From a bacterium (GTDB lineage: Bacteria > Acidobacteriota > Thermoanaerobaculia > Multivoradales > JAHEKO01): 64,000 bases of DNA. Numbering within the stretch: position 1 is the first letter of the stretch; each line of letters begins with the position of its first letter. Location of the stretch: positions 1 through 64,000 of the forward strand of contig JAAENP010000004.1 in assembly GCA_024224155.1 (NCBI GenBank), given 5' to 3'. Under the pieces are notes generated by a model. That model worked only from the letters and a program-made list of their open reading frames with translations. It did not search any database and was not told the DNA's origin. The position numbers and the translations under genes are program-made. This document shows, one piece after another, positions 51,381 to 64,000 of the stretch.

Positions 51381-51779
51381 CCGCTATACAAGCCGACACC
51401 GGCGCTCGGTGCGCCGCGCTTCGACGTCGGTCGGCAGAGCATCCGGCCAGGGACGCCTCGGGCTCCGAACCCGGGCCGCCGCACGTCGACGTCGGTCGAC
51501 AGGCGATTCTCCAGGGGCCGGCTCGAGCTGGGAGGTCTGCGGGAGGTCGGGCTCTCGCCTGCGCGCCGCTACGCGCAAACCACTAGAGAACTCCGGCTCG
51601 CTCTGCAGAGCGCTTGCGGCGAGCCCCCTGGGCGAATCGCCTGCCCAACCGCCTTGCCTCTGCGCTTCGGCTGGAGACCCCCAGCCATGGCCAAGGAGTT
51701 CCGAGTTCTCGATTCGCCCGTGGGAAACACTCCTGCCGGCCTCCGTCGACGCGCGTCGGAGATGACGGTCGAGACGGAA
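51381..51779. other. Non-coding tract with direct and inverted repeats
   Basis: About 400 nt with no convincing gene. A 16-nt direct repeat occurs at 51422-51437 and 51487-51502 with one mismatch. Inverted pairs include GAGAACTC (51586-51593) with GAGTTCTC (51703-51710), GGGCGAATCG (51630-51639) with its complement (51710-51719), and a small hairpin GGCTGG/CCAGCC (51669-51686). The first two pairings interleave, so they are alternatives or a pseudoknot. The tract may be a structured RNA or decayed repeats; nothing more can be said. Confidence 0.45.
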
Positions 51780-61655: not shown

Positions 61656-62855
61656 ATGGCCTGGATCTCGCCGGAAGAAGCGTGGCGTTGGCTGGCCGAG
61701 GGGCTGGGCCCTCAGGCTCCCGAAACGGTGTCTCGTCGCCGAGCGGCCGGGCGGGTGCTGGCGGCTCCCGTCCGTGCGACCGTCGACCTGCCGCCCTGCG
61801 ACATGTCTGCGATGGACGGCTACGCCGTCTCCGAGCCGGTGACCGCAGGAAGCAGTCTGCCGGTTACCGCGACGATCGCAGCCGGGGACGGCCCCGGCCA
61901 CATTCTGACCGCCGGCTCAGCGGTCCGCATCATGACCGGAGCCCCGGTTCCCGCAGGCAGCGAGGCCGTCGTTCCGGTCGAGCAGACCGATGCCGGCGAA
62001 ACGACCGTGACCTTCTCGGCGGCCTCCCAAAGCGGCGCCCACATCCGCCAGCACGGCGAGGTCGTCCGTGCCGGCGACGAGATTCTCAGCACCGGCACAC
62101 CGGTGACGGCCACGGTTCTCGGTCTCCTCGCGGCCCATGGCACCGCGGAGATCGAAGTCTACGGCGTGCCCCGGGTCGCGACCTTGAGTACGGGCGACGA
62201 AATCCTACCGCCCGAGGAAGAACCGGGCCCCGGACAGCTTCGAGACACCCACGCGGATTTCCTGCTGGCCGCTGGCAGGACTCTGCATCTCGAGTTCCAG
62301 GCACTGGGGATCGCACGTGACAATGAGGCGGACCTCGCCCGACATATCGAGCAAGGTCTCGAACATGACGTGCTTCTGATCTCCGGGGGAGTGTCCAAAG
62401 GCATCTTCGATCTGGTCGAGGACGTCCTCGCCCGATATGGTTGCAGAACTCTCTTTGACGCCGTCGCGGTCCAACCGGGCAAGCCGCTGGTTGCCGCGCG
62501 CCACGAGAATGGATGGGTCTTCGGTCTTCCCGGGAATCCGGCTTCGGCCATCGTCTGCTTTCACCTCTTCGTACGGCCGTTCTTGCGCACGATGCTGGGA
62601 TTCGAAGACGGCTACTGGCACGGGGCGTTGCGGGCCCAGCTCGCGGCGCCGCTGCCCGGGGCCCGTAAGCGCGATCGCTTCGTGAGCGCCTCAGTACGGA
62701 CCGAGGACGGCCGCATCCTGGTCACGCCGCACTCGCCCCAAGGCTCCCACGACGTTATCGCCTACGGCCACGGCTCGGCGCTCGTGCGCATCACGGCCCA
62801 CTCCGAGCCGACCGCGCCCGGCGAGAGCTGCGAAGTTCTTCTCCTACCCGGCTGA
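61656..62855 (+). CDS. moeA: Molybdopterin molybdenumtransferase MoeA
   Basis: Inserts molybdate into adenylylated molybdopterin to give the active cofactor. The 399-residue protein has ATVDLPPCDMSAMDGYAV, GSAVRIMTGAPVPAGSEAVVPVEQ, the linker TPVTATVLGLLAAHG, a MoaB/Mog-like domain with VATLSTGDEILPPEEEPGPGQLRDTHADF and SGGVSKGIFDLVEDVL, and the FGLPGNPASAIVCFHLFVRPFL segment before the C-terminal domain. It stands alone on the plus strand, near xdhC. Confidence 0.96.
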   Translation: MAWISPEEAWRWLAEGLGPQAPETVSRRRAAGRVLAAPVRATVDLPPCDMSAMDGYAVSEPVTAGSSLPVTATIAAGDGPGHILTAGSAVRIMTGAPVPAGSEAVVPVEQTDAGETTVTFSAASQSGAHIRQHGEVVRAGDEILSTGTPVTATVLGLLAAHGTAEIEVYGVPRVATLSTGDEILPPEEEPGPGQLRDTHADFLLAAGRTLHLEFQALGIARDNEADLARHIEQGLEHDVLLISGGVSKGIFDLVEDVLARYGCRTLFDAVAVQPGKPLVAARHENGWVFGLPGNPASAIVCFHLFVRPFLRTMLGFEDGYWHGALRAQLAAPLPGARKRDRFVSASVRTEDGRILVTPHSPQGSHDVIAYGHGSALVRITAHSEPTAPGESCEVLLLPG

Positions 62856-62964
62856 TCCCGCCCGCCCCGCCCGGTCGCGCACGCAGCCGCCGACGCTACC
62901 GAGCTCGCGGCCATACCCAGATCGACCGCTACGAATCTGTTGATTCGGGAAACCACGTCCCGAG
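62856..62964. other. Intergenic lead-in to the tandem repeat
   Basis: A GC-rich stretch after the moeA stop with no frame in local codon style. I see nothing in it beyond short dispersed GATTCG motifs. Confidence 0.4.
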
Positions 62965-63124
62965 CCGATTCGACAGGTACTCGGCCCAGATAGTCGAATC
63001 GGTGATCCATGCCCCGCGACTCAATCGGCCCGTCCAGGGCATAGGCGAAGGCCGACTCCGCAGGTACCCGGCCCAGACAGTGGAATCGGTGATCCACGCC
63101 CCGCGGCTGAATGAGCGCCGCGTG
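62965..63124. repeat. Tandem structured repeat with covarying stems
   Basis: A 61-nt unit occurs twice at an 87-nt offset (62965-63025 and 63052-63112). In copy 1 a 10-bp stem pairs 62965-62974 with 62993-63002; the copy 2 equivalent pairs 63052-63061 with 63080-63089. One base pair is inverted between copies (G-C in one, C-G in the other), so the stem is kept. A second stem follows in each copy: 63009-63014 with 63037-63042, and 63095-63099 with 63120-63124, where a T-A becomes C-G. This indicates a folded RNA or DNA element rather than coding sequence. Confidence 0.6.
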
Positions 63125-63169
63125 CGCCTCGGAGGGAGCCTCTCCGTGCTCCCGAAGAGGCCGCACCGG

Positions 63170-63187
63170 CGCGACTCAATCGGCCCG
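63170..63187. repeat. Third partial copy of the repeat edge
   Basis: An 18-nt segment identical to 63017-63034 of copy 1 (the CGCGACTCAATCGGCCCG edge). It shows that the element extends past the two full copies toward the metallopeptidase gene end. Confidence 0.5.
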
Positions 63188-63222
63188 GTCGACACCGCCG
63201 AGCGGCGAGCCGAGACGTTTAT

Positions 63223-64000
63223 CTACTGAAACGTGTCGCAGGCCTGTGGGTCGCCGGTCTCGAGGCCGCGATAGAGCCAGCGCTGGCGCTGCTCCGAGGA
63301 ACCGTGAGTCCAGGACTCGGGCTGCACGTAGCCGTTGCTCTTTCTCTGAATCGAGTCATCCCCGATCGCGGCGGCGGCCCGCAAACCCTCCTCGAAGTCG
63401 CCCGGCTCGATCAGGTTGCGTTGGCGATTGGCGTGGTGGCCCCAGACTCCGGCCAGACAATCCGCCTGCAGCTCGAGCTTGACCGAGAGCTGGTTGCCCT
63501 GTTCCCGTGAGGTCCGCTGGCGGGCGCGCTGGACCTGGTCGCTTATGCCCATCTGGTTCTGAATGTGGTGACCGACCTCGTGGGCGATGACGTAGGCCTG
63601 GGCGAAATCCCCGGGCGCTCCGAATCGACGCTCGAGCTGATCGAAGAAGCTCAAGTCAAGATAGACCTTGCTGTCGGCGGGACAGTAGAAAGGTCCGACC
63701 GCCGCCGAGTTGAAACCACAGGCTGAACGTACCTGACCCGAGAACAAGACCATGGCCGGCTCCTGATACCCCGAACCGAGAAGCTGATTCCAGGTGTCTT
63801 CGGTGTCCGCGAGCACGACGGACGCAAACTCGCCCAACGTGTCCCGGGGACTCGCTCCAGGGCCGCCGGAAGTGGATCCGGGTGCCGGCATGCCCTGCCC
63901 GACCTGGGCGTCCTGGATCACCTCGATCAGCTGCTGCGGGTCGCGCCCGAACATCCAGGCGAGCAGTACGATCACGATCAGGCCGCCGCAGCCGATCGGT
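63223..64000 (-). CDS. Neutral zinc metallopeptidase (KPN_02809/YpfJ family), 5' truncated
   Basis: The frame is open to the window edge, so the N-terminus is missing. The visible 259 codons start inside the transmembrane helix (GLIVIVLLAWMFGRDPQQL) that these proteins have. The metallopeptidase domain contains the HExxH site in AYVIAHEVGHHIQNQMG and a downstream ELQADCLAG segment supplying the third ligand. CGFNSAAVGPFYCPADSKVYLDLSFF is typical of the family. It ends three codons after a final ACDTF. The physiological substrate is unknown. Confidence 0.93.
   Translation of the reverse strand, partial: PIGCGGLIVIVLLAWMFGRDPQQLIEVIQDAQVGQGMPAPGSTSGGPGASPRDTLGEFASVVLADTEDTWNQLLGSGYQEPAMVLFSGQVRSACGFNSAAVGPFYCPADSKVYLDLSFFDQLERRFGAPGDFAQAYVIAHEVGHHIQNQMGISDQVQRARQRTSREQGNQLSVKLELQADCLAGVWGHHANRQRNLIEPGDFEEGLRAAAAIGDDSIQRKSNGYVQPESWTHGSSEQRQRWLYRGLETGDPQACDTFQ

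Follow-up and report, generated by a model that had tools for sequence, protein, structure and literature searches.

What is the tandem repeat that follows moeA in this genome of the Thermoanaerobaculia: a structured RNA in its own right, or a piece of a larger repeat system? The window, meaning the whole 64-kb stretch of DNA that was analysed, carries moeA (61656-62855, plus strand) and, convergent with it, a gene for a neutral zinc metallopeptidase (63223-63999, minus strand), and the repeat lies in the 367-bp intergenic region between them (62856-63222). The initial annotation described two units 87 nt apart with few differences, which is confirmed here. Unit 1 (62964-63025) and unit 2 (63051-63112), both on the plus strand, are 61-62 nt long, identical at 53 of 62 positions (85%), and start 87 nt from each other. 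The analysis indicates that the tandem repeat is no stand-alone RNA gene but part of a mosaic of short hairpin-forming repeats, dozens of which lie between genes in a small group of Acidobacteriota, and that this part is worn and was duplicated locally. The locus as a whole very probably represents a BIME-like mosaic, made up of non-coding interspersed repeats, that has decayed and undergone a local duplication.

The intergenic region and its tandem units

In the sister genome G001, a congener, the moeA and metallopeptidase genes end about 5 bp apart, and the 367-bp region is therefore extra DNA in the genome studied here; the junction without the region could also reflect a deletion in G001. 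The gap contains a half REP (62919-62932), the two units, a hairpin of a dispersed family termed A, and another half REP (63187-63195).

The structural claims made for the units fared differently. The 10-bp stem of unit 1, CCGATTCGAC/GTCGAATCGG, pairs perfectly, and the reported swap of a G-C for a C-G pair in it is compensatory (62972 G to C together with 62995 C to G). The other differences between the units in this stem produce a G-T wobble in one case and break a pair in the other (T-A to C.A). A second swap, from T-A to C-G, had been claimed for another stem. This second stem is predicted for unit 1; with the partner placed in register (+87), five of its pairs fail in unit 2, and T63010-A63041 becomes C/C. 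A C-G pair is possible there only by means of GCGTG at 63120-63124, which belongs to another helix according to an alignment of 51 copies. Of the two claimed compensations, therefore, one stands. When folding was compared with that of shuffled sequences, unit 1 reached a modest z of -2.1, and the isolated unit-2 stem was no better than the shuffles (z -0.6).

In the window's own genome (5.7 Mb, a fragmented assembly of 576 contigs), a search with the units alone found no other copy of a whole unit, and the units match dispersed repeats at their two ends only. A query spanning 62950-63200 gave 44 matches in the same genome, nearly all of which cover just 63101-63195. At the other end, approximately 26 nt at the start of the units correspond to the 5' end of family B, a second dispersed hairpin, which is about 190 nt long and has long terminal inverted repeats and 46 matches in this genome. 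The resemblance extends over the first approximately 24 nt of unit 1, while in unit 2 it comprises 24 of 26 positions (63048-63073), with a score of 42 against a shuffled maximum of 34.6. One copy of family B lies within the window on the minus strand (51480-51665), where it forms a long imperfect hairpin with inverted ends (GCCGATTCGGCAGGCAGCCGGCCAGGGG; fold z -2.4). The middle of the units shows only chance-level similarity. Taken with the broken second stem and the unremarkable stability of the unit-2 stem, these observations make it very unlikely that the two units themselves are a selected tandem RNA or DNA structure, a reading in whose favour the single real compensation in the 10-bp stem can be cited.

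The 3' end of unit 2 runs into the family A hairpin, which also accounts for the third partial copy noted earlier at 63170-63187. The 18-nt match is exact, but it belongs to the 3' arm of this separate hairpin of about 90 nt (63104-63193). Its counterpart is a plus-strand fragment at 63015-63032 (CGCGACTCAATCGGCCCG), identical at 18 of 18 positions, which is probably the remnant of a second family A copy after loss of the hairpin. Unit 1 ends in a junction of A's 3' arm with the 5' flank of A across a shared CGCG, which a deletion of the hairpin by slippage would be expected to leave.

The spacing of 87 nt equals 3 x 29, and open frames cross the region on both strands (62762-63166, minus; 63002-63229, plus), as would be expected of a protein-coding repeat. 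This explanation is hardly credible, since the frames cross or reach mobile repeat DNA that the sister junction lacks, and the coding score is weak (15.7 for 76 aa).

The covarying hairpin of family A

A selected structure with pairing-preserving changes had been proposed for the 61-nt unit. Such changes are indeed present, but the structure that covaries is the neighbouring plus-strand hairpin at 63104-63193, which matches the covariance model of family A with 94.7 bits. Three helices of this hairpin show covariation: P1 (63115-63120 with 63167-63172), P2 (63122-63130 with 63157-63166) and P3 (63134-63139 with 63148-63153), all on the plus strand. The segment 63099-63195 folds with a z of -4.8 relative to shuffled sequences. 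The junction of P2 and P3, as read from alignment A1, is a symmetric G-N-A/G-N-A internal loop, and CCTCTC at 63139-63144, comprising the last 5' base of P3 and the apical loop, is kept while both stems vary.

The alignment on which the structure rests consists of 51 copies from the window's own genome and two congeners, and it defines 21 pairs. Across these copies, 94% of cells pair, as against 31-52% in slid controls, and 12 pairs change on both sides. Double-changed cells number 102, compared with 27 in shuffles, and none of 500 shuffles reached the observed value. In a wider set of 118 distinct sequences, double changes affect 18 of the 21 pairs; this set was fitted to the model, and fitted alignments lean toward the structure. 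Part of the covariation may come from amplification of subfamilies, because the copies share ancestry, which the shuffle control does not take into account.

One explanation of such a pattern is that family A is a functional RNA element, such as a 3'-UTR stabiliser, a bidirectional terminator or an sRNA, under selection for its fold in the transcript, with the REPs as mere neighbours. The strong covariation across genera is in its favour, as is the retention of the CCTCTC loop and the GNA/GNA internal loop while the stems change. On the plus strand of family A, G-T pairs outnumber A.C mismatches by 35 to 15, as expected for an RNA fold, and this slightly favours folding of that strand as RNA. 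Against this explanation, no terminator-like T run stands beside the hairpin, and compensatory changes in repeats can arise by subfamily amplification or by hairpin-templated repair. The placement of the copies among genes, described below, bears on it further.

The ends of family A bear on its place in two familiar categories. In the consensus, A is preceded by TGAA and followed by CTATCGG, with no GTAG or CGTC tag, so that A is not filed as a REP. Pairing of the outer flanks within a copy is no better than between copies (own versus swapped flanks, p 0.13); an outer stem extending the hairpin is thus unsupported, and A has no long terminal inverted repeat. It is small, non-coding, palindromic and multicopy, and together with the long inverted ends of family B these traits resemble those of a classical MITE, which a DDE transposase would mobilise via terminal inverted repeats. 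The lack of long terminal repeats in A, the finding of no autonomous, transposase-carrying copy and the better supported association with REPs make this origin distinctly unlikely.

Additional variation was seen at the margins of the family. In some subfamilies the outer stem is kept and the inner hairpin replaced. Among low-scoring relatives (L154, L155, L156, L130 and L158), the outer GGCCGGCC...CCGGCGGCC stem is kept, and the inner hairpin can be drawn with CGAG/CGAG tandem G.A pairs. At L125 (G004:C364) and L142 (G004:C135), in another genus, there is a divergent, locally clustered branch of the family, in which GCATCTC replaces GCCTCTC in the loop.

Distribution of family A and its placement among genes

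The initial annotation expected more copies and knew of no named element of this form. The first expectation was borne out for the hairpin but not for the whole unit: the covariance model (E<=1e-3) matches family A 80 times in the own genome (G000), 29 times in G001 and twice in G002, both congeners, and 12 times in G009 and 8 times in G004, each from another genus, with no match in the other 54 relatives. As to a name, the family has none, and Rfam gave no match up to E = 1 in 62500-63600, but its general kind, that of REP/BIME-like interspersed palindromes, is known. An exact core pattern of A, run against the genomes of 85,000 species, was found in two MAGs only, named Thermoanaerobaculia (G001) and Acidobacteriota. 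A phage origin was rejected, the core pattern being absent from viral contigs. An integron attC site was also rejected as an identity, because the copies are dispersed, in both orientations and without cassette arrays.

None of 119 copies of family A overlaps a predicted gene. Convergent genes flank 44 copies, tandem genes 54 (26 copies sense, 28 antisense) and divergent genes 8, compared with 76 tandem, 11 convergent and 11 divergent pairs in a background sample of the own genome; these counts are approximate, as genes were taken from a simple codon-usage caller. Copies of A are over-represented in the gaps between convergent genes, and between tandem genes neither strand is preferred. A bias toward the 3' ends of genes is known for REPs and matches this placement. 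The same bias would suit a functional RNA, but the even split of orientations argues against a strand-specific role in a transcript, and copy numbers that differ between relatives, from 0 to 80, point to a repeat and not to a conserved gene regulator. The functional RNA explanation is accordingly unlikely.

Some of the copies predate the split from G001, as shown by one copy, L123:2418, whose orthologous site in G001 (C20:6009) is likewise occupied. This comparison covers 16 kb of contig C311; other places are too poorly syntenic to compare. In a separate observation, where neighbouring A copies lie on opposite strands within 200 nt, the order is (-,+) in 7 of 7 cases (L126, L133, L138, L139, L141 and L123), and these pairs mostly combine one GAGCGCC-type with one GGCCGGCC-type copy.

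GTAG-tagged REPs and the mosaic

Many copies of family A are flanked by GGTCGAC...GTCGACCGCTACAA, which on the other strand gives GTAG-CGGTCGAC-N6-GTCGACCG. GTAG-REPs are defined as short palindromes of 20-50 nt preceded by GTAG (PMC8266576, PMC3733652), and under this definition the flanking element reads as a canonical GTAG-tagged REP. Termed family C, it follows the pattern GTAGCGGTCGAC-N6-GTCGACCG, with a GTAG tag, an 8-bp palindrome and a 6-nt loop, and thus has the tagged short palindrome of a GTAG-REP (GTAGCGGTCGAY-N6-GTCGACCG). The pattern occurs 31 times in the own genome, 305 times in G001, 214 in G009 and 118 in G002, as against 0-1 for the reversed-pattern control, and 0-7 times in six other genomes of the taxonomic family.

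The association between REPs and family A is fixed in its arrangement. Of the 74 main-family copies, 26 have half-REPs upstream and 25 downstream within 200 nt; the orientation of these half-REPs is the same at 48 of 55 sites, and their rate is about 15-fold that in sequence further away. In G001, a module of REP, spacer, A and REP is dispersed and also tandemly repeated; identity reaches 95-97% across approximately 200-240 nt, which looks like recent spread.

At the moeA locus no intact GTAG-REP is present, only half-sites. The first, at 62919-62932 on the minus strand, is the tag and first arm of a decayed family C REP (GTAGCGGTCGATCT, with at most one mismatch). Its segment 62922-62932 is the sole match with at most one mismatch in the window, and its position and orientation match those of REPs upstream of other family A copies. 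The second, GGTCGACAC at 63187-63195 on the plus strand, lies directly 3' of family A and, read from the sequence, would be the other half; its arrangement compares with the flanks of L070, L071 and L132.

A candidate agent of movement was found in relatives. RAYT genes scoring above the NCBIfam cut-off have GTAG-REPs on both sides in two congeners, G001:C112 (L243) and G002:C97 (L244), and each has the make-up of a REPtron in Thermoanaerobaculia. The own genome encodes two RAYT-like proteins that fall below this cut-off and are not REP-flanked, and none of its Y1 genes is flanked by A, B or C, so that they were set aside as a source. The sequence stretches examined around the RAYT genes contain no copy of family A, and the proposal that RAYT moves A accordingly relies on association.

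Several variants of the REPs themselves were seen. A subset of GTAG-REPs has a 30-nt insert in the loop; in L232, L038, L039, L123 and L130 this loop holds CTTGCCCTCGAGCGAAGCGAAGGG, as if a second palindrome had been inserted. In G001, L185 (positions 1-280, G001:C20) is a tandem array of GTAG-REPs with a 35-bp period (positions 2, 72, 107, 142, 212 and 247). In contigs C53, C65, C69 and C91 of G002, the REP subtypes ..GACCTCCGTGTCGACCG and ..GAGCTCCGTCTCGACCG stand in opposite orientation about 47 nt apart, in a REPIN-like manner.

Comparison with described systems locates the family more closely. With the GTAG superfamily of REPs and its RAYT (TnpA_REP), family C has in common the GTAG tag, an intergenic position, 31-305 copies per genome and the flanked RAYT in two congeners. 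GTAG repeats are listed for Proteobacteria, Cyanobacteria, Chloroflexi and the PVC group (PMC3733652), whereas the host here belongs to the Thermoanaerobaculia, and many family C copies carry the 30-nt loop insert. The mosaics resemble BIMEs and REPINs in combining REPs with other repeated motifs in a recurrent extragenic arrangement that is dispersed, locally tandem and downstream of genes. They differ in their partner motifs, the covarying hairpin A and the longer hairpin B, and in that the REPs flanking A are mostly direct and not alternating; alternating pairs occur elsewhere, in G002. From the same phylum, TIR repeats with TIRYT genes are described for Acidobacteria, in Koribacter versatilis and others (PMC3733652). 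By description, these are alike in being palindromic repeat families linked to relatives of Y1 transposases, but here neither A nor B was found to flank a TIRYT gene. Overall, the repeats form a new family within a known category, that of REP/BIME-like mosaics, and its unusual part is the long covarying hairpin A.

A history consistent with a decayed mosaic can be proposed for the locus. A standard module of REP(-), spacer, hairpin A(+) and REP(-) would have settled between the two convergent genes; a local duplication of the spacer would then have produced units 1 and 2, and the first copy would later have lost most of its A hairpin. Most likely, a RAYT (HUH/Y1) transposase moves the GTAG-REP by acting on hairpins in single-stranded form, and it may also create or move the mosaics, in which hairpins A and B most likely are passengers, A being either a rider or a second substrate. 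The fold of A would be kept because the folded strand, whether DNA or RNA, is recognised or tolerated. It is also conceivable, though rather doubtful, that A represents a selected hairpin of a new class, which would be recognised by some partner as RNA or as single-stranded DNA and would spread by incorporation into REP mosaics. This idea leans on the conserved CCTCTC loop, the G-N-A/G-N-A internal loops and the covariation across at least two genera.

The locus serves as a warning that compensatory changes between neighbouring repeats can be by-products of a repeat mosaic. Beyond this, a GTAG-REP/RAYT system is documented in Thermoanaerobaculia, together with mosaics in which REPs occur alongside a longer hairpin with strong covariation. 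Should A prove to be a folded substrate or a functional transcript, its approximately 130 copies in two genera, with their large natural variation, would offer unusually good material for distinguishing selection on structure from repeat dynamics.
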